This document shows positions 4,768 to 23,530 of a stretch of DNA of 28,936 nucleotides, piece after piece; the first letter of the stretch is position 1, and every line of letters begins with the position of its first letter. A model generated the notes under the pieces. That model saw only the letters and a program-made list of their open reading frames with translations. It did not search any database and was not told where the DNA came from. Where the stretch lies: positions 1-28,936 of the IMG/VR virus record IMGVR_UViG_3300045885_000279. One strand, written 5' to 3'. The position numbers and the translations under genes were made by a program. Origin of the DNA: a virus.

Positions 4768-5031
4768 TTATGCGGCCACCGCCTGATTGATGTGATTGGT
4801 GATGATCTCGGTGATGACGTTCGCCTTACCGCGCGTGGACGGCCCGATCCACCAGAGATTCACGATCTCCTGCGCGGCGTCGGCGATCGCATCGCGGACC
4901 CGCGCGTCGGCGGAAGGATCGACCGGCATCGCCGCGATCATCGTCATCATTGCCTGATCGATCGCGCGGAGCCCCTCGTCGGGATCGGCGATCGCGTGGT
5001 TGAGCACGAGGCGTGCTTCCTGAACTGTCAC
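4768..5031 (-). CDS. Hypothetical helical protein, 87 aa (first gene of early operon)
   Basis: Starts with GTG at 5031, preceded by AAGGGAAAG. The protein is mostly helical and acidic: MTVQEARLVLNHAIADPDEG, AIDQAMMTMIAAMPVDPSAD, and a C-terminal VITEIITNHINQAV. No domain is recognised. It is the first gene of the minus-strand run from 5031 to 2396, so a promoter is expected between 5032 and about 5140, the AT-rich stretch shared with the divergent zinc-ribbon gene; I cannot place the minus-strand promoter. Confidence 0.55.
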   Translation of the reverse strand: MTVQEARLVLNHAIADPDEGLRAIDQAMMTMIAAMPVDPSADARVRDAIADAAQEIVNLWWIGPSTRGKANVITEIITNHINQAVAA

Positions 5032-5068
5032 TTTGAAACTTTCCCTTCGCGCTTTATAGCCTCGCGGC

Positions 5069-5098
5069 TTGTCTACATCACCAGTATATTATTATGAT
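5069..5098 (+). promoter_or_regulatory. Candidate sigma-70-type promoter for the zinc-ribbon gene
   Basis: TTGTCT at 5069-5074 and TATGAT at 5093-5098 are 18 bases apart in an AT-rich island of an otherwise GC-rich genome. Transcription would begin near 5105, about 30 bases before the ATG repeats of the zinc-ribbon gene. The match is partial and untested. Confidence 0.35.
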
Positions 5099-5137
5099 GA
5101 TGATTACCGCAAGCCCCCGCGAAGAAAAAAAAATACT

Positions 5138-5299
5138 ATGATGATGATGATGAGAGAACAGACGGTGAAGTGCCTCAGGTGCGGACACGAATGGGTCAAG
5201 CGCACACCGGGCAGACCGAAATCCTGCCCGAACTGCAAGCAGCCTCGATGGGACCAGCCTAGTCAGTGGTCACGAAAAACCGCGCCAACGAAAAAGTGA
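5138..5299 (+). CDS. Zinc-ribbon protein, about 49-53 aa, opposite strand to its surroundings
   Basis: The coding part is clear from a four-cysteine ribbon: VKCLRCGHEWVKRTPGRPKS followed by CPNCKQPRWDQP (C-x-x-C, 16 residues, C-x-x-C). This type of single ribbon with an HEW and a C-terminal CPxC-W pattern is common in phage and archaeal small regulators, so DNA or RNA binding is likely. Five ATG codons in tandem (5138-5152) make the exact start uncertain; a further in-frame TTG lies at 5069, but it overlaps the candidate promoter. It lies alone on plus between the late terminator and the early operon, in low-GC DNA, suggesting recent gain. Confidence 0.6.
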   Translation: MMMMMREQTVKCLRCGHEWVKRTPGRPKSCPNCKQPRWDQPSQWSRKTAPTKK

Positions 5300-5370
5300 T
5301 GGAGCGCAAAAGGCGGGAAGCCGCGTCAGCCGCGGCCCGCAAGCGGAAGAAGGGGGGAACCGGCAGGTAA
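5299..5370 (+). CDS. Possible basic mini-peptide, 23 aa
   Basis: An ATG sharing one base with the zinc-ribbon stop (TGATG) opens a 23-codon frame, Arg/Lys/Ala-rich (MERKRREAASAAARKRKKGG and three more). It ends six bases before a strong hairpin. The coupling geometry argues for translation; the low complexity argues for chance. Function unknown. Confidence 0.25.
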   Translation: MERKRREAASAAARKRKKGGTGR

Positions 5371-5400
5371 AAGATCGGGGCGGGCGGGTGACCCGCCCCG
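5369..5400 (-). terminator. Terminator of the late (structural) operon
   Basis: A perfect 9-bp stem CGGGGCGGG / CCCGCCCCG with a 7-base loop; read on the minus strand it is followed by ATCTTTTACC. It lies 65 bases after the last tail-region gene (stop at 5465) and closes the long minus-strand structural transcript before the plus-strand zinc-ribbon gene. There is no T run on the plus side. Confidence 0.7.
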
Positions 5401-5464
5401 GCCAGGTACAGAAGGAAAAGAAGGGGAAGTCCGACAGACAAGACGCACGGCGGGAGCCGCGCCG

Positions 5465-5752
5465 TTACAGGGTTCGCGAGAACACGCCCTCGACCGCGGT
5501 CTGAAGCGCGCCGTCGGCGATCGCCGCGCCGGCGGCGTCCACCGCCGGATCGATGACGACCAGCGGCTGTAGTTGCTGCGCCTCGTAATCCGGCTGCGCG
5601 ATCCACTGGATCGCCCGGCGCCAGCGGGCGATGTGCGCCGGCGTTGCCGGATCTTCGGCGAGCACGGCGACGGCGACTCTGAGCGCGGCGATCTTCACGC
5701 GCCCCTGAAACACCAGGTCTTTGGCGAGCGCGGCGGATTCTTCGTATGTCAT
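5465..5752 (-). CDS. Hypothetical tail-end protein, 95 aa
   Basis: Last gene of the structural operon, starting four bases after the stop of the previous gene. Mainly helical: MTYEESAALAKDLVFQGRVK, IAALRVAVAVLAEDP, then ARWRRAIQWIAQPDYEA and a hydrophobic Ala-rich end. The size and position (after the fibre) are typical of small conserved phage genes of unknown role, such as fibre chaperones or tail accessories. No motif identifies it. Confidence 0.6.
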   Translation of the reverse strand: MTYEESAALAKDLVFQGRVKIAALRVAVAVLAEDPATPAHIARWRRAIQWIAQPDYEAQQLQPLVVIDPAVDAAGAAIADGALQTAVEGVFSRTL

Positions 5753-5756
5753 CCGA

Positions 5757-6194
5757 TCACATCCTCGGCTGCGTGAACGCGCCCGCGGGCGACTGCGGAT
5801 TGACTGATCCGTAGCCGTTCTGCGCGTACCAGTTCTCCACTTCCTGATCGCTCACCACTCCCGCGCAGTACGTCGGCATGATGTTGCCGAGCGCGGTGTC
5901 AAGCTGCGCGTCCATCGCGGCCTCGACGGCTTCGGAGTTGAAGGCGTTCAGGTGTTCGCGGATGTTGGTCTGGATGTCCTGACGCGAGGCGACCGCGTTG
6001 ATCGTCTGCCCGACGTAGACATCGGGATTGGTCGCGACCCTGCCCGCAATGATGCGCTGCCTCACGAAGTCCTCCGGCGGTTTCTCCGTCGGCAGAGCCA
6101 GATTCAGCCATCCGGCGGACCAGCGAAGCAGTCCGGTGTACTGCCGGTCGCGGCATACCTGCTGCCGGGGGAATTGCGCGATGAGTGTGTACAT
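5757..6194 (-). CDS. Hypothetical tail-region protein, 145 aa
   Basis: The ATG at 6194 has an excellent AGGGAGAG ribosome site; the longer open frame up to 6512 is a shadow of the fibre gene. Sequence: MYTLIAQFPRQQVCRDRQYT, GLLRWSAGWLNLALP, a helical centre with QDIQTNIREHLNAFN and MDAQLDTALGNIMP, and a Gly/Asn/Pro-rich end (AQNGYGSVNPQSPAGAF). No domain recognised. Lying directly behind the fibre gene in the same transcript, it may be a tail accessory or assembly protein. Confidence 0.6.
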   Translation of the reverse strand: MYTLIAQFPRQQVCRDRQYTGLLRWSAGWLNLALPTEKPPEDFVRQRIIAGRVATNPDVYVGQTINAVASRQDIQTNIREHLNAFNSEAVEAAMDAQLDTALGNIMPTYCAGVVSDQEVENWYAQNGYGSVNPQSPAGAFTQPRM

Positions 6195-6214
6195 GTTTTT
6201 GTCTCTCCCTGGAT

Positions 6215-7495
6215 TCACGCGATCTTGAGAAATCCACTTGCATCCTTGTAGATCTGGTTGCTCGCGGCGGGCGGTACAGTTGTCGTCACGCCGCCCAGAT
6301 ATATACCCGTCGTTCCAGACAGAGTAATATCGCTCGCGTTGATGATCAGTCTCTTGCCCGCGTTTGCTGTACGATCCCAGCTGAACATAAATGCCGTCCC
6401 GCCATTCACGGTCGGGACGTAGTGGAACTCCAGCCCCGACCCGCTCGCGGGCAATGCGCCGGAACCCTCGGCGATGCGGCATCCCTTGCCGCCCCATACC
6501 TCGAGTCTGCAATCCGGCCCGACACTGCCGATGCCGACGTTAACCGGAAACGTGACCTGACTGGAGCGGAACTGCGCCACCGACGCGAGCGCACTTATAT
6601 CTGTGGTCTGCCCGAATTTCACGTCAAGCTGTCCGCCGTATCCGCTGGCAACATCAAGGGACCAGTGCAGCGATGCACGCGCCGATCCGCCGCCCCAGTA
6701 GCTGATGCGAGCTTCTTCTCCTGCGGTCGCTCCCTGACTTCGCAGTACTATCTCCGGTCCTACCCCGCCTGGATTGATCCTGTAGATGTCAATCGGTGCG
6801 TTCGGCGCGTTGTGTCCGACACCGATCCAGCCCGTGTTCAGCAGCCGGAACCCCGCCGCGTCGATATCACTCAACCACGGTGTCTGCGATCCTCCCGCGC
6901 CGCCGCCAGTGGAGTTGATCGTGATGTTCACACGATCGTTCCCGGCGTCGTCCGCGCCGCTGAGAACCACGCTGGCGCCCGCGATCAGGTTGAGCTTTGA
7001 GCGCGTCCCGATCAGTGACCCGTTGACCAGAGCGCCGATCTTCTGGACGCTGGTATTGTCCACCACCGCCAGCGTCCGGTCCCCGCTCAGATCGCCGCCG
7101 CCCGACAGGCCCGCGCCCGCGATCACCTGACGCGATGCCGGAACCCCGCCGCCCGCCGCGATATCAGCCCCGGTGAGCACCACGTCGCCCGTCCGCCCGA
7201 ACACCGTCGTCACGTCGGCGGTCAGCGTCACGTCCGCCGTCAGAGCGCCGCCGCCGCCCAGTCCCGAGCCCGCGATGACCTGCCGCGTCTCAGGAACCGA
7301 AGTCCCGGCGTGCGTGCCGACATGCTGGACGTTCGTCCACAGGTCGATCAGCGCCTGACGGACGACGTTGCCGAAGCCTGTAGACGACACCACCTGACCC
7401 GGCGACACCGGCGCCGGGAACACCGGCGTCACCGGAAACGGCGGGATCGCCAGAGGTCCGATGCCGTTACCCGAGTCCGTTACGAGCGAGTTCAT
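6215..7495 (-). CDS. Tail fibre / receptor-binding protein
   Basis: 426 aa. After a Pro-rich N-terminus (about 12-35) and a helix likely to anchor to the tail (NVVRQALIDLWTNVQHVGTH), two fibre-type repeats appear: TRQVIAGSGLGGGGALTADV at about 71-90 and SRQVIAGAGLSGGGDLSGDR at about 122-141, a pattern known from phage fibres (RQVxAGxGLxGGGxLxxDxTL). The middle and C-terminus are Gly/Asn/Ser-rich beta structure, with GIGSVGPDCRLEVWGGKG like the GIG-x-x-x-P-x-x-x-L-x-V motif common before fibre tips. It overlaps the 78-aa gene upstream by 29 bases. Host recognition is inferred from family and position. Confidence 0.8.
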   Translation of the reverse strand: MNSLVTDSGNGIGPLAIPPFPVTPVFPAPVSPGQVVSSTGFGNVVRQALIDLWTNVQHVGTHAGTSVPETRQVIAGSGLGGGGALTADVTLTADVTTVFGRTGDVVLTGADIAAGGGVPASRQVIAGAGLSGGGDLSGDRTLAVVDNTSVQKIGALVNGSLIGTRSKLNLIAGASVVLSGADDAGNDRVNITINSTGGGAGGSQTPWLSDIDAAGFRLLNTGWIGVGHNAPNAPIDIYRINPGGVGPEIVLRSQGATAGEEARISYWGGGSARASLHWSLDVASGYGGQLDVKFGQTTDISALASVAQFRSSQVTFPVNVGIGSVGPDCRLEVWGGKGCRIAEGSGALPASGSGLEFHYVPTVNGGTAFMFSWDRTANAGKRLIINASDITLSGTTGIYLGGVTTTVPPAASNQIYKDASGFLKIA

Positions 7496-17045: not shown

Positions 17046-17618
17046 TCACCCGCCGATCTCGATCTGCTCTCCGCGCCAGAGATCCTCGATCCCGCGCGGC
17101 AGCTTCACCGCGCCGGCACTCGCGTACTTCGTCTCGCGTGCGCCCAGCCGGTCGCAGTAGAGCACCGTCGCGTACTCGAGGATTCCCTCGCGCACACTAT
17201 CCGGCACGTCCGCGGGCTCGTCGCCGTATCCCGACACCCAGACGACGGCCATCCGCGTATAAGGCGCGGACTGCAGTGTGATCACCGGCCCGATCACCTG
17301 ATACGCCGCCGGATCGAGCACCGGCGCACCCGACGCCCCGCTCACCGTCGTCACGCTCTGTACGCGCCCGCGCGGGAGCACGATCGCCGTATCGCACGAT
17401 CTGTGGTCGAGATCCCAGTACCCCTTGAGGGTCTGCGTCATGATCGAGCGCCGCAGATACCGCTCAGCCCGCATCGTGGCCGCAGCCAGTTCGCGGTGGA
17501 TCAGGTCCGGTTGCCGATCGACGGTGAGCCCGTTGAGCCTCGCATGGTCAACGAACTCGTCCACCGTCACCGGGAGATCCGTCGGCCCGGTGATCCGCTC
17601 AATCGCGAGCAGTCTCAT
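17046..17618 (-). CDS. Head-tail connector (HK97 gp6-like)
   Basis: 190 aa. Helical N-terminus with LPVTVDEFVDHARLNGLTVD and IHRELAAATMRAERYLRRSI, then the family signature KGYWDLDHRSCDTAIVLPRG-R-V-x-S-V, a beta part, and DSVREGILEYATVLYCDR near the end. Gp6-like connectors form the ring below the portal. It begins inside the preceding 45-aa gene (20-bp overlap). Confidence 0.85.
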   Translation of the reverse strand: MRLLAIERITGPTDLPVTVDEFVDHARLNGLTVDRQPDLIHRELAAATMRAERYLRRSIMTQTLKGYWDLDHRSCDTAIVLPRGRVQSVTTVSGASGAPVLDPAAYQVIGPVITLQSAPYTRMAVVWVSGYGDEPADVPDSVREGILEYATVLYCDRLGARETKYASAGAVKLPRGIEDLWRGEQIEIGG

Positions 17619-17736
17619 GTTTCGCCGCCTTCTTCGCCGGTTTCCTTTTCGTTGCCGCCGCTTTGTTCTCGTAGCCGCTGAGCGCTTTGTTCTCAGGCGT
17701 CCGCTCTGGCTTCTGCTTCGGTTGATCGTCGGTCAT
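17599..17736 (-). CDS. Short Lys/Ala-rich protein, 45 aa
   Basis: ATG 17736 to TGA 17599, overlapping the connector start by 20 bases. Composition is like a disordered tail: MTDDQPKQKPERTPENKALS, then YENKAAATKRKPAKKAAK. Such small basic genes are often found between capsid and connector genes and are thought to be accessory. The ribosome site is weak. The call is supported by reading frame, overlap and codon pattern only. Confidence 0.4.
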   Translation of the reverse strand: MTDDQPKQKPERTPENKALSGYENKAAATKRKPAKKAAKHETARD

Positions 17737-17749
17737 GGAGCACCAAAAC

Positions 17750-17797
17750 GCCGAACCGGGACGCGCCGGCCATCACCCCGCCGCGCCCGGTTCCGGC
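17750..17797. repeat. Hairpin unit A upstream of the HNH gene
   Basis: Imperfect inverted repeat: GCCGAACCGGGACGCG pairs with CGCGCCCGGTTCCGGC across a short loop. It is closely related to unit B 96 bases further right: both begin GCCGAACCGG and end with CGCGCCCGGT(T/C)CCGGC. It lies in the only non-coding gap of the head block. Confidence 0.55.
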
Positions 17798-17845
17798 ACA
17801 TCCCCGCGGCCCGGAACGTCGCAGGGAACAAGGAGTTCTTATACT

Positions 17846-17892
17846 GCCGAACCGGACACGGCGACTATGGCCTCGCCGCGCCCGGTCCCGGC
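17846..17892. repeat. Hairpin unit B upstream of the HNH gene
   Basis: GCCGAACCGGACACGGCG pairs with CGCCGCGCCCGGTCCCGGC (few mismatches), a second copy of the unit at 17750. No T run follows on either strand, so these are not simple terminators. Confidence 0.55.
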
Positions 17893-17964
17893 GCTTCCCC
17901 CGTGATTCAGCCGTCACGGGAAAAATGGCGTAACGCAATCTCGCAACCTAACGTCACTATATTT

Positions 17965-18672
17965 ATGGGTCAGCGTATCGATTTAGAGGGACTGCGCTTC
18001 GGGAGACTGGCTGTTGTTGCGCCGTTGCATCCGACTGGCAAACGATCCGGCGAGTCCCGCAGCACGAATCCGTTCATCGGAACCGCCGCATGGATCTGCC
18101 GATGCGACTGCGGCTCTGAAGTATTGGTGAGAAGTGCGTCCCTCCGCAACGGTTCGACAAGGAGTTGCGGTTGCCTTCGGATCGATGTTACGCGCGATCA
18201 CTTCTCTACTCACGGACTCTCCAAAACACGCGCATACCGTAGCTGGCTGAGTATGATAGGCCGCTGCCGCTACAAAGGCAATACGGCTTGGGAACGATAC
18301 GGCGGCAGAGGCATCACTGTCTGCGAACGATGGGAGACCTTCGAAAACTTTCTCGCCGATATGGGAGAGCCACCAGATGGCATGACGCTCGATCGCATCG
18401 ACAACATGGGCAATTACTCCCCCGGCAACTGCCGTTGGGCGACCGTCGAGACACAACTTAACAATCGGCGTAATTCCCACTTCCTGACCTATAACGGCAA
18501 GACTCAAACCCTTGCCCAATGGGACAGAGAACTCGGGTTTAGCCAGGGTACGATTCACAACCGTCTCACATCCTTCGGTGACGATCTGGCCAAGGTAATG
18601 CACGTTGGCCGCTTTCCGGGCAGAAGAGGCCGGGGAAGAAAAACCTCGGCCTCTTCTCCATCCGCCGACTAG
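17965..18672 (+). CDS. HNH homing-type endonuclease (free-standing)
   Basis: 235 aa on the strand opposite to all neighbours. An N-terminal zinc-ribbon (residues 44-72: WICRCDCGSE and SCGCL) is followed by the HNH core at about 108-165: AWERYGGRGITVCERWETFE, FLADMGEPPDGMTLDRIDNM, GNYSPGNCRWATVETQLNNR. The LDRIDN...NCRWAT pattern is the signature of this phage endonuclease group. A C-terminal NUMOD/HTH-like region (FLTYNGKTQTLAQWDRELGF) probably reads the target. Start ATG 17965 is first in front of the conserved part and has no strong ribosome site. Codon use is less GC-rich than in the head genes. Its TAG shares CTAG with the capsid stop. Probably a selfish homing gene. Confidence 0.85.
   Translation: MGQRIDLEGLRFGRLAVVAPLHPTGKRSGESRSTNPFIGTAAWICRCDCGSEVLVRSASLRNGSTRSCGCLRIDVTRDHFSTHGLSKTRAYRSWLSMIGRCRYKGNTAWERYGGRGITVCERWETFENFLADMGEPPDGMTLDRIDNMGNYSPGNCRWATVETQLNNRRNSHFLTYNGKTQTLAQWDRELGFSQGTIHNRLTSFGDDLAKVMHVGRFPGRRGRGRKTSASSPSAD
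18622..18657. terminator. Strong hairpin between convergent capsid and HNH genes
   Basis: A 14-bp near-perfect stem, AGAAGAGGCCGGGG / CCTCGGCCTCTTCT, with loop AAGAAAAA, lies inside the last codons of the HNH gene and 12 bases past the capsid stop on the minus strand. No T run follows either arm, so intrinsic termination is uncertain; it could stop or stabilise capsid mRNA ends. Confidence 0.45.
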
Positions 18673-19865
18673 GCGGGCGTAGTGCCTTTTTCAAATGCAG
18701 CCGCGGTGAAGATTAAGAGCGCGAGTCTCTCCTCCACTAAAATTGTTAAAAGATTTTTGACAAAATCGTCTTCTGACTGTTCCGCGACCCGCACATTCAC
18801 TTCCTCGCGATCGAGGATGAGCGAGTTGCCGCGGAACGCGCCGACGAGGAAGTTCCCCGCGGTCATCTGAGACGACATGACCATCCGCGTCCCCCAGAGC
18901 GACAACGACGACGAGTACGCGATCGGATTCGCGAACAGGTAGTTACCCTGGCTGTTTTTCAACATCGCCACGCCGCCCCAGTCTGCCGGATTCATCACGC
19001 TGCCGTCCGCCATGTACCCTTTCGATGCCAGATCAAAGATAGCCGCTCCCACCGCATCGACCAGAGTCGGGTCCGTACCGCCGGGCGCCGGCGCCGCCGC
19101 CGCCACCGTCATGAACCCCCTGAGTTGAGGAGCCACGCCGCTGCCGTTGAGCAGCTGCTGGTCCTCTTTGAGTTGCACACCGTAGATGCCGTTCGACTCG
19201 ATCTGCGCGGCGAGCCCCGGCAGATCCTCGTAGGATTGTCTGGACACCTTGAAAAAATGCGCGATCACCTCCACCGGCTGCGTCGTCGGAGTGAAGACCT
19301 TGTCCGACTTCGGCTTCGCCGTTCCCTCTGCAACCACGTTGGCGTTGTTCGTAAACGACGTCTCGACGACGTAGGTGATCGCGCCCGCCGTCGTATTGCC
19401 CTGCGGAACCAGCGTTCTCACGCCCGTCGCGAGCCGCGGCCCCGATGCGATGCCGGGGAGCGATTCGGGAACGCTCCGCGAGACGCCGGTGATGTCCTTC
19501 GCGCCGCCATACAGCCCGCGCGGGATCGACACCGTGTACCCGTTGCGCGAGCCGCTCTTGATGTGCGCGAGCAGACCCGCGTCGGCGATCACGATGTCGC
19601 CGATCGACTGCATCGGCACCCGCTCCCGCGGTTTCTCGTTCAGTTTGACTTCGAGCGCGTCGGCGCGTCTGGATGCGGCCTCGTGCCGCTCCTGCACCTC
19701 TTTCATCGCGAGGTCGAGTTTGTCGATTCGCTCGAGCGTGGCGGAATCCGCCTTGCCGAGCTTCGCGACTTCCTCGCGGACGTTTTTGTATGCGTCCTTG
19801 AATTCGAGCAGGATCCCTTTTACCTGCTCGCGATCTTCGTTGTTCATCAACGATGTTTCAGCCAT
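18669..19865 (-). CDS. Major capsid protein (HK97 fold)
   Basis: 398 aa. Residues 8-80 form a charged coiled coil (EVAKLGKADSATLERIDKLD, EVQERHEAASRRADALEVKL), the HK97 delta/scaffold domain removed by the protease. The shell domain has SRSVPESLPGIASGPRLATG, VRTLVPQGNTTAGAITYVVE, AEGTAKPKSDKVFTPTTQPV and EVIAHFFKVSRQSYEDLPGL, then YGVQLKEDQQLLNGSG, all hallmarks of the family. An AGGAG-like site precedes ATG 19865; ATG 19847 is an alternative. The last ~25 codons (FVKNLLTILVEERLALLIFT) use TTA, TTT, AAA and ATT codons rarely used elsewhere in the gene and lie right against the convergent HNH gene. Confidence 0.95.
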   Translation of the reverse strand: MAETSLMNNEDREQVKGILLEFKDAYKNVREEVAKLGKADSATLERIDKLDLAMKEVQERHEAASRRADALEVKLNEKPRERVPMQSIGDIVIADAGLLAHIKSGSRNGYTVSIPRGLYGGAKDITGVSRSVPESLPGIASGPRLATGVRTLVPQGNTTAGAITYVVETSFTNNANVVAEGTAKPKSDKVFTPTTQPVEVIAHFFKVSRQSYEDLPGLAAQIESNGIYGVQLKEDQQLLNGSGVAPQLRGFMTVAAAAPAPGGTDPTLVDAVGAAIFDLASKGYMADGSVMNPADWGGVAMLKNSQGNYLFANPIAYSSSLSLWGTRMVMSSQMTAGNFLVGAFRGNSLILDREEVNVRVAEQSEDDFVKNLLTILVEERLALLIFTAAAFEKGTTPA

Positions 19866-20555: not shown

Positions 20556-20582
20556 GCTATATTACCCTATAGGTGCAAACCA

Positions 20583-20915
20583 ATGACTGAGATCAGTTAC
20601 GAGAACTGGATGGTTGAAGGACAACGTCGCTTCGGCGAAGACTTCATGAACTGGCGATTCGAGTGTCCCGTCTGCCATCACGTCGCGTCGGTGCAGGATT
20701 ACCAGCCATTCAAAGACCGGGGCGCCGATGCCAACTCTGCGACGTGCGAGTGCATCGGACGCTACATCCCCGGCAGCAGGAAGGCTTTCGAGGAGACTGG
20801 AAAAGGACCGTGCGATTACGCCGGATACGGTCTGTTCAGGTTGTCTCCGGTCATGGTGACCGCCGCTCCTGATATTGCCCCGCGGCATTGCTTCGCTTTC
20901 GCGCCGATGGATTAA
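20583..20915 (+). CDS. VVA0879-like phage protein (opposite-strand insert)
   Basis: 110 aa from ATG 20583 with AGGTG seven bases upstream. FECPVCHHVASVQDYQPF (C28, C31), ATCECIGRYI (C55, C57), GKGPCDYAGYGLFRLSPVMV (C77) and HCFAFAP match my memory of the VVA0879 group: C-P-x-C-x-H-V-x-S...N-x-x...C-I-G-R...G-x-x-G-C-x-(W/Y)-A...G-L-F. A zinc-binding small protein is likely; the function of the group is unknown. It sits alone on plus between the minor head gene (stops converge, 20915/20918) and the protease (27-bp divergent gap), so it is an insert in the head operon. Confidence 0.65.
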   Translation: MTEISYENWMVEGQRRFGEDFMNWRFECPVCHHVASVQDYQPFKDRGADANSATCECIGRYIPGSRKAFEETGKGPCDYAGYGLFRLSPVMVTAAPDIAPRHCFAFAPMD

Positions 20916-20917
20916 AT

Positions 20918-21763
20918 TCACGCCACCCGCCGCGGACGCCGCGGCGCCATCCGTTCAGCCGAGCCATAGGCGATATGGCACCGGCACCGCACAACCGTTC
21001 CCGGCGACGCGCCCATCGACACATCGCCGGGGAACATCAGCCGCTCGCCCGACACCAGGAAGGCATCGTCCAGCGTCCGCCGCTGCCCGCCCGCGGCGCG
21101 GTGCGAGTCCCTCACGCGGTCATCCGCCATATGCACCCAGAACTTCGCCATCTGCGCCCGCGTCTGCTGCGCGGCGGATAGCGAGCCGTAGTTCGTCGCC
21201 GCGTGGACCTCGGTATGCCCGATCGTCTCCGACCGCGCCGGCCGTCGCGATCGCACCGACGTGAGTATCCTCATCGCGATCTGGTGCGATGTTTCGCCGA
21301 GCGCGATCCCCTCATCGATGTGACCGGCGATCTCGCGGCGCGATGTGTTGGCGATCTGCGTTGCCCCGCGCAGCCCGTTCATCCGCAGCCACTCGGTCGC
21401 CGCGGCGAGCAGTGCCTCTTCCGGCGTGATCTTCGCCTCAAGCGACTTGCCTGACGGCAGGTACGGCTGGACGACCGCACCCGCCGCCGGTACGGTCGAG
21501 ATCCAGAGCGACCGCAGATAGCGCAGCCACTCCTGATCGTCAACCGATGCGATCGCGGCGCCCTCGCCGCCGGCCTCGTAGGCTTCCGACGCCCTCGATC
21601 CCTCGCTCGACAGGATCGCGCCGGCGCGTCCGATCCACCGCGGGGAATGCGACTCCACAAACGAGTCCATCTCCTGCCAGATCCGGCGTGCGTGACGCGG
21701 CGCGTCCCGCTTCACCTCGATATCGTGGGACCGGATCGCAGGGACCGGCGCAGGAACGGTCAT
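20918..21763 (-). CDS. Minor head morphogenesis protein (Mu F / SPP1 gp7-like)
   Basis: 281 aa. A helical N-terminal half (IRSHDIEVKRDAPRHARRIW...) and a conserved C-terminal module: ARSETIGHTEVHAATNYGSL, AQMAKFWVHMADDRVRDSHR, AFLVSGERLMFPGD and SPGTVVRCRCHI. The R-T-E...W-x-x-x-x-D-x-R-x-x-x-x-H...P-x-D...C-R-C pattern is that of phage head morphogenesis proteins that bind the portal. Start overlaps the upstream stop (ATGA). Confidence 0.85.
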   Translation of the reverse strand: MTVPAPVPAIRSHDIEVKRDAPRHARRIWQEMDSFVESHSPRWIGRAGAILSSEGSRASEAYEAGGEGAAIASVDDQEWLRYLRSLWISTVPAAGAVVQPYLPSGKSLEAKITPEEALLAAATEWLRMNGLRGATQIANTSRREIAGHIDEGIALGETSHQIAMRILTSVRSRRPARSETIGHTEVHAATNYGSLSAAQQTRAQMAKFWVHMADDRVRDSHRAAGGQRRTLDDAFLVSGERLMFPGDVSMGASPGTVVRCRCHIAYGSAERMAPRRPRRVA

Positions 21764-22675: not shown

Positions 22676-23530
22676 CTATTGAAAGTGGCCGTGAATGCAG
22701 CCATGATGCACGCTGCACACTGTCGTCAGATCTTCCATATACAGGGCTTCTGCGCCGTAATGGTCGTAGGAATGATGGTGAACGTGAAATGGAAGGTTGT
22801 TCTGCCAATCGACAACCTTGTCGATTCCATCAGGACTATCCAGATACAAGAGCAATGCGCGGCGATGTCCTTCGTCCTTGATCAGTTCCGCCCATAGCGC
22901 GTTCGGAAAGCACAGTTTGCAAAACGGCATCCGCCGTCGCGTCTGCTCGTCTTTGACTGGTTGCCATAACGCGCTTTTGTAGTACCGACAAGTCCTGCTA
23001 TCGTCTGCCCGCCTTGCATCGTGCATACACCGCGACACAAACTGCTTGTCTGTCGCCATCCGATAATGCAATGCTGCGAAATCTGGCGATGCTTCAGGCA
23101 TTAGCGGACCTTCGGCCCATACCGCTTCTCCCAGATACAGGCGCGGCCATTCATGCGACAGCCACTGCCAATGCATAAACGCTGGTTCACCGAGACGCTC
23201 GCTGATAGCCCTGATCCGCGCTGTTTCCTGCTCATTCCACATGCGGTACAGCATCATCCGCACGTCCTCATCCTGCTTGTCGAGACGATCCGCTTCATCA
23301 TCGATTCGTTTGGCGCGAAACCGATCAAACCAGTCATAGCCTGACTTGGAACAATCAGCACGGTGCTGCACGCATCGATCAAGTCGTTCCTTTTTTATCG
23401 TCACCTCACCATCTGAGCGCCGCAGACGTATAACGCCGTGCCGATGGCACGATTTACACCAGTACTGCGTCGGTATAAGACCATCCTGTTCCTTCAGATC
23501 AAGCCCGCGATACGGTTGATGGTTGGTCAT
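22676..23530 (-). CDS. HNH endonuclease-like protein in the portal operon
   Basis: 284 aa. N-terminal zinc-finger-like part (YWCKSCHRHG, RCVQHRADCSKSG), a helical middle (IDDEADRLDKQDEDVRMMLY, SEWP-like Trp-rich stretch), a second Cys pair (FCKLC, 204-207) and an HNH core at 248-282: LPFHVHHHSYDHYGAEALYM, EDLTTVCSVHHGCIHGHF. The HVHHHSYD...G-x-E-x-x-x-D-L-x-x-x-C-x-x-H-H pattern is the classical HNH. Start overlaps the portal stop (ATGA), so unlike the other HNH gene it is co-oriented and coupled. Lower GC than the portal. It may be a homing gene adapted into the operon or may assist packaging like phage HNH-terminase partners, but it is not beside the terminase. Confidence 0.7.
   Translation of the reverse strand: MTNHQPYRGLDLKEQDGLIPTQYWCKSCHRHGVIRLRRSDGEVTIKKERLDRCVQHRADCSKSGYDWFDRFRAKRIDDEADRLDKQDEDVRMMLYRMWNEQETARIRAISERLGEPAFMHWQWLSHEWPRLYLGEAVWAEGPLMPEASPDFAALHYRMATDKQFVSRCMHDARRADDSRTCRYYKSALWQPVKDEQTRRRMPFCKLCFPNALWAELIKDEGHRRALLLYLDSPDGIDKVVDWQNNLPFHVHHHSYDHYGAEALYMEDLTTVCSVHHGCIHGHFQ

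Follow-up and report, generated by a model that had tools for sequence, protein, structure and literature searches.

WHO elements of Torulaspora and Lachancea yeasts home into FBA1 (Coughlan et al. 2020, PMC7282813), and in fungal mitochondria mORF gene hybrids have been described for atp6, atp9, cox2 and nad3 (Beaudet et al. 2013, PMC3630166). Phage homing endonucleases cluster near essential genes (PMC10448857). Here we analysed a virus record of 28,936 bases (the window, meaning the whole of this stretch of DNA), in which an HNH endonuclease gene adjoins the 3′ end of a major capsid gene. We consider it probable that the window holds a free-standing homing element in which an HNH endonuclease gene is paired with a replacement 3′ end for the capsid gene. 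The direct evidence for this is the anatomy of the locus, the HNH family, a synonymous change in the end of the capsid gene, the joint transfer of that end and the HNH gene, a remnant of the native gene end and purifying selection.

Several phage systems resemble this locus in part. As far as the excerpted account of SegG, SegH and MobE from T4-type phages goes, these too are free-standing nuclease genes with co-conversion of their flanks and a sporadic distribution among relatives, but they are described there as lying between genes, with no duplicate, recoded target-gene end (PMC2988022). At T4 gene 39/60, a phage homing endonuclease likewise adjoins target-gene sequence that may protect from cutting, although there it is a 50-nt translational bypass insert that may protect, rather than a synonymous replacement 3′ end (PMC5009743). 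The ShiLan element is also an HNH gene that homes into a phage gene, encoding a methylase, with neither intron nor intein; unlike the element considered here, it lies inside its target and is read through in frame, and no 3′ end is replaced (PMC11855218). In the open-access literature searched, we found no phage precedent for an element that brings a replacement gene end with it.

An HNH endonuclease gene convergent with the major capsid gene

The window contains a GC-rich late operon on the minus strand, encoding terminase, portal, Mu F-like protein, protease, major capsid protein, connector and tape measure (Pfam and PHROG profiles). One plus-strand gene, at 17965-18672, sits between capsid and connector and encodes the HNH endonuclease. 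The features of the locus are as follows, with relatives given by L numbers.

17600 to 17923: L003-like flank to the right of the element (blastn, 95% identical over 325 bp)
17930 to 17964, plus strand: leader of the HNH gene (junction comparison of the window, L006, L003 and L005)
17965 to 18672, plus strand: HNH endonuclease gene, 235 aa (phrog_374, E=5.3e-68)
18622 to 18657: 14-bp stem-loop in the 3′ coding end of the HNH gene (-31.1 kcal/mol, z -3.9), an inverted repeat also present in L006
18669 to 18672: CTAG, the overlapping stop codons of the capsid and HNH genes (read directly)
18669 to 18770, minus strand: putative element-borne, synonymously diverged capsid 3′ end, codons 366-398 plus stop (codon alignment, GC3)
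18669 to 19865, minus strand: major capsid protein gene, HK97 type, 398 aa (PF05065 Phage_capsid, E=4.5e-38; phrog_10, E=5.4e-49)

The major capsid gene is the target and host gene of the element. The first-pass annotation had placed the HNH gene tail to tail with it, with a CTAG stop in common, and this motif was seen at 18669-18672. A group I intron and an intein were both ruled out, because the capsid ORF is uninterrupted as far as its own stop codon and the HNH gene lies on the opposite strand. The stem-loop near the convergent stops is not a typical terminator because it has no T-run and the terminator scan was negative; terminator and promoter scans together returned nothing convincing.

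In addition to phrog_374, the HNH protein matched phrog_3377 (E=1e-50), while a Pfam search gave no match. Its AF2 model (pLDDT 87.8) shows a Cys-rich N-terminal part, an HNH domain at about residues 85-171 and a helix-turn-helix-like end at about 172-209. When the HNH domain was compared using VIA-align, PacI (3ldy) topped the second-look list with a Z of 6.2, which is below Z 8, and an rmsd of 2.2 over 73 residues, unrelated rows reaching at most 4.5; the C-terminal part matched the I-TevI DNA-binding domain (1i3j) with a modest Z of 3.4. A Foldseek search of the model against the PDB found nothing at E <= 0.001, and comparison of the protein with the sequences of solved structures gave no match. 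These structural scores are modest, and it is the profile match that carries the family assignment. Comparison of the HNH gene of the window with that of L006 gave a dN of 0.091 and a dS of 0.883, indicating purifying selection and thus a gene that has been kept functional. Judged by its family, its sporadic presence at the site and its transfer with flanks, it probably encodes a free-standing HNH homing endonuclease, which is predicted to cut the HNH-free allele site-specifically.

A synonymous shift at the end of the capsid gene

Within the capsid gene, GC3 drops from 0.82 in codons 137-365 (hereafter the body) to 0.48 in codons 366-398 (the tail), where the codons from 366 onward to the stop read CTT TTA ACA ATT TTA ... 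GCA TTT GAA AAA. The first-pass annotation had described an AT-rich end against a GC-rich rest; its shift is borne out by GC3, but the end spans about 33 codons and not the roughly 25 proposed. The capsid protein of the window ends in NLLTILVEERLALLIFTAAAFEKGTTPA, one residue apart from an HNH-free relative (L005), and near-identical C-terminal residues are encoded by the window, L003, L005, L006 and L004. The change at the capsid end is therefore almost purely synonymous. The C-terminus of the window is 10-12 residues shorter than those of L003, L005 and L006.

Elsewhere in the window, a GC3 of 0.48 or less over 33 codons was found in 59 of 3874 stretches from ten other genes. Two of these genes (22676-23530 and 20562-20921), which are AT-richer overall, dip to 0.42, and the other eight bottom out at 0.52. 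Such a stretch is therefore not unique in the window; within the capsid gene family it is exceptional. The two low-GC3 genes (0.58 and 0.54), both on the minus strand, matched nothing in Pfam or PHROG and lack homologues in the related loci; they are likely recent additions to the head operon.

Relatives of the capsid gene were taken from IMG/VR. Two lack the HNH gene and are closely related to the window, with capsid proteins 93% (L003, of which L002 is a copy) and 86% (L005) identical in amino acids; two others, L006 and L004 (the latter cut by its contig end), carry it at the same site as the window. Tail GC3 was 0.48 in the window and 0.36 in both L004 and L006, compared with 0.88 in both L003 and L005. 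Subtracting body from tail gave -0.34, -0.42 and -0.47 for the HNH carriers and -0.11 to +0.14 for distinct HNH-free relatives down to 34% identity, with L009 (-0.35) as the sole outlier. The first-pass annotation had named HNH-free relatives with the same AT-rich end as the finding that would count against its proposal; the close ones, L003 and L005, have a GC-rich end. When IMG/VR was searched for the exact DNA pattern of the tail, it returned L004 and L006 only, and a capsid scan of bacterial genomes found distant relatives only, all without the element. Beside this capsid family, only two different sequences of such an element turned up, one in the window and one in L006 and L004.

The outlier, L009 (7060-7194; copies L010 and L051), is an HNH-free contig with a capsid of 56% identity, in which GC3 falls from 0.80 to 0.45. 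Its AT-rich end begins near the same codon and differs in sequence from the element tails, and L053, a 72% relative of L009, has a normal capsid end. The L009 end may be what a lost element left behind, or it may be a resistant allele. It also fits a quite different explanation, namely that AT-rich gene ends arise locally, through translation termination, mRNA structure or mutational bias, and that the HNH gene is a mere neighbour; some other genes of the window, too, reach a GC3 of 0.42. We regard this as very improbable, given that the remaining HNH-free relatives, the two nearest included, show no dip and that local effects leave unexplained a switch of partners at codons 362-367, described below.

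The tail and the HNH gene share a history distinct from that of the capsid body

Four-taxon informative sites gave contradictory groupings for the two parts of the capsid gene. In codons 1-365, 65 sites grouped the window with L003 against L005 with L006, and 8 grouped the window with L006 against L003 with L005; in codons 366-398 the corresponding numbers were 1 and 10 (Fisher p=1.6e-7 against the body). The switch falls between codons 362 and 367. Since the window sides with L003 in the body and with L006 in the tail, we conclude that tail and HNH gene moved jointly between phage backbones. On the far side of the HNH gene, the last sequence common to the window and L006 is the end of the leader at 17930-17939 (ATTGCGTTAC, capsid sense), which therefore marks the right boundary of the element. 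Beyond it the window returns to an L003-like sequence and L006 tracks L005 (93% over 99 bp), indicating that a block of about 840 bp, made up of tail, HNH gene and leader and ending in ATTGCGTTAC, sits in two different backbones. These comparisons bear out the earlier proposal that the AT-rich end arrived with the HNH gene from another phage: near HNH-free relatives are without it, HNH carriers have it, and the partners switch at codons 362-367.

The tail is also far more diverged than the body. Where residues are the same, the codons are identical at 76% of positions in the body and 36% in the tail between the window and L003, and at 78% and 39% between L006 and L005. Synonymous differences per site reach 0.93 (window and L003) and 0.84 (L006 and L005) in the tail, against 0.31 and 0.30 in the body. 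The window and L006 tails have 16 codons in common, compared with 10.5 under within-tail shuffles, whereas element and native tails match at the random level of such shuffles. At codons 376 (CTC to TTA), 380 (CGG to AGA) and 390-393 (GCG TTC GAG AAG to GCA TTT GAA AAA), the two native tails are alike and the two element tails are alike but different from the native ones, which makes these positions candidates for the recognition site. The element tails are therefore of common ancestry, and their divergence from the native ends is saturated. A test for recoding beyond saturation was negative, so that directed recoding against cutting is not demonstrated; that the tail was altered to escape cutting, as the first-pass annotation had offered as an alternative, is plausible. 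The donor was not an AT-rich phage, because the tail residues are those of the same GC-rich capsid group and the HNH gene, with a GC3 of 0.62, is less AT-rich than the tail. The AT enrichment of the tail opposes the composition of these genomes.

This joint movement also bears on what the HNH protein does. Some HNH proteins act in phage packaging (cited in PMC12724721), and the gene is placed among head genes, so it might encode a packaging or host-takeover nuclease of the late operon rather than a homing enzyme. We find this hardly credible: the gene is missing in near-identical relatives and lies on the strand opposite to the late genes, its family is scattered, with members beside portal, terminase, tail and integrase genes, and it changes backbones together with the tail.

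A displaced native capsid end beyond the HNH gene

Directly after the element, L006 carries ACTGAGGCTTCGGCGCGCCGGCGGTAA, which encodes TEASARRR-stop, the native capsid 3′ end as found in L005. This remnant lies inside the 99-bp block that is 93% identical to the capsid end and downstream region of L005 (E=9e-34). The capsid gene proper of L006 ends in TESAARRR-stop, in other codons, from the element. Because the native end persists past the HNH gene, the gene end carried by the element is a duplicate that has diverged synonymously. The arrangement thus amounts to more than incidental co-conversion, with a replacement end belonging to the mobile unit. In the window no trace of a native L003-type capsid end was found beyond the HNH gene, where the remnant has been lost; the window's insertion history is therefore read from L006.

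L004 combines both types. It equals L005 over its first 3605 bases (512/512 informative sites) and L006 from 3656 on (327/327), through tail and HNH gene, a pattern to be expected after homing if the converted tract extended some 350-390 bp upstream from the capsid stop. The L005 and L006 types are identical over a 50-bp stretch at the switch, and L007, an L005-type contig from the L006 sample, has its right end exactly at the position corresponding to L004 3605, hinting at a recombinant in the L006 sample too, or at an assembly fork. Because of the shared stretch and the L007 end, L004 could be a chimeric assembly; the main case is independent of it. The same two observations could be extended into the view that the whole mosaic results from metagenome assembly joining unrelated phages, to which we give almost no credence. 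The window and L006 are separate contigs that differ in sequence (tails 77% identical in nucleotides, HNH proteins about 85%), with intact reading frames under purifying selection, and no single misassembly therefore yields both.

A more serious alternative is that the endonuclease is a free-standing homing enzyme of the ordinary kind and the tail a passive co-conversion tract that hitchhikes by linkage, diverges neutrally and confers no protection. Co-conversion is standard for phage homing endonucleases (PMC2988022), L004 resembles just such a tract, and the synonymous divergence of the tail is saturated and does not go past saturation. We nevertheless judge it unlikely. The native end retained past the HNH gene in L006 makes the tail an element-borne duplicate without which the capsid gene would be incomplete, divergence is much greater in the tail than in the body although the protein is unchanged, and a second locus, L080 (see below), repeats the same anatomy.

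L006 has about 2.4 kb between capsid and connector (5000-7468) that is missing from L005, with genes for 85 and 735 aa, and in L053 this spot is occupied by a possible DNA methylase gene. The position between capsid and connector is thus one that takes up extra genes.

Gene ends at other loci of the HNH family

To address generality, 91 loci of the phrog_374 HNH family were assembled. GC-rich genes convergent with HNH genes (n=10; the excluded locus is given as L040 or L006) showed a mean tail GC3 drop of 0.19, compared with 0.04 in 142 controls (p=1.6e-4), and the tail shift of same-strand genes upstream of HNH genes was not significant. The convergent genes encode portal, a second, unrelated capsid (L086), head-tail adaptor, head closure and terminase. 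In L086 the last 20 capsid codons have a GC3 of 0.50, against 0.70-0.90 in HNH-free relatives.

Displaced gene ends were sought by a stop-anchored test, which replaced a protein-level repeat scan of the HNH flanks that GC-rich compositional matches had swamped. It recovered L080 (7/8 residues) and L006 (6/8), while 3774 mismatched pairs reached at most 4/8. L080 is an unrelated phage contig in which a terminase gene convergent with HNH ends in ESSLVSVG-stop, and ETSLVSVG-stop follows past the HNH gene in different codons. It shows the same anatomy as the L006 element, with a displaced native end beyond the HNH gene. In isolate phages that carry this HNH family, 11 neighbour genes were tested and none had a remnant, and most HNH genes there lie in same-strand operons; this is therefore not the arrangement of most genes of this HNH family.

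Three further loci are of note. On a jumbo contig (L134, 2628-4169) a same-family HNH gene has an intact small gene on one side and, on the other, a second copy of that gene with a frameshift, which looks like another displaced-copy arrangement. In L050 (4893-6421) a gene convergent with HNH ends in LAFLEALT-stop, and IIAQEALT-stop on the far side of the HNH gene is a possible weak remnant. In L138 (833-2995) a portal gene is followed directly by an HNH gene on the same strand, and over the last 30 codons of the portal gene GC3 falls to about 0.5 from 0.93; an HNH-free relative was looked for and none was found.

Discussion

The two-part element suggests the following route, in which we infer that the native end is cut, that the recoded end resists and how repair proceeds. 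During mixed infection, the HNH protein would cut the capsid gene of an HNH-free relative in its native 3′ end. The HNH-bearing genome would then serve as the template for repair, with the capsid body as one flank and the sequence immediately past the native gene end as the other. In this way the recipient would gain the HNH gene together with a chimeric capsid gene, in which the last 33 or so codons are the element version, specifying nearly the same amino acids with other codons and presumably uncut. The native end would be displaced past the HNH gene as a remnant, retained in L006 and lost in the window.

If true, a selfish nuclease can settle harmlessly in the essential, conserved major capsid gene by means of a spare synonymous gene end. 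Capsid-gene ends may then differ in history from the remainder of the gene, which calls for caution in phage phylogenies. An abrupt synonymous shift at a gene end, a convergent HNH gene and a displaced native end would together provide a search signature. We see about an even chance that there is a widespread phage class of gene-end-replacing homing elements, independent counterparts of the yeast WHO elements, each consisting of a convergent HNH nuclease and, for a single essential late gene (capsid, terminase, portal or head-tail adaptor), a 3′ end that is recoded and resists cleavage, so that structural-gene ends are repeatedly swapped between phages.

The fungal systems are the closest in anatomy. 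In WHO elements, as here, the endonuclease gene adjoins the 3′ end of its target, the diverged 3′ end of the element replaces the native one, and the body and end of the target gene are contradictory in their relationships; the native 3′ fragment is displaced past the endonuclease gene, as is still seen in L006 and L080 (PMC7282813). Membership in the WHO family proper was rejected, the protein being an HNH nuclease (phrog_374): the WHO nuclease is intein-derived with a zinc finger and homologous to HO, whereas here an HNH protein is read convergently. The setting also differs, with a phage host and a major capsid gene as target, and resistance, predicted here, was tested in yeast (PMC7282813). 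In the mORF hybrids, too, an endonuclease ORF supplies a mostly synonymous foreign C-terminus and the native C-terminus stays downstream, but the enzymes are of the LAGLIDADG or GIY-YIG type and are transcribed with or fused to the target gene, unlike the opposite-strand HNH gene of this phage (PMC3630166).

Taken together, the anatomy suggests that the element in the window may work like a WHO element while standing outside the WHO family. The same trick is already known in yeast and fungal mitochondria, and what would be new is an element with a replacement gene end in a phage, which, if true, extends the WHO and mORF mode of homing from fungi to phages.
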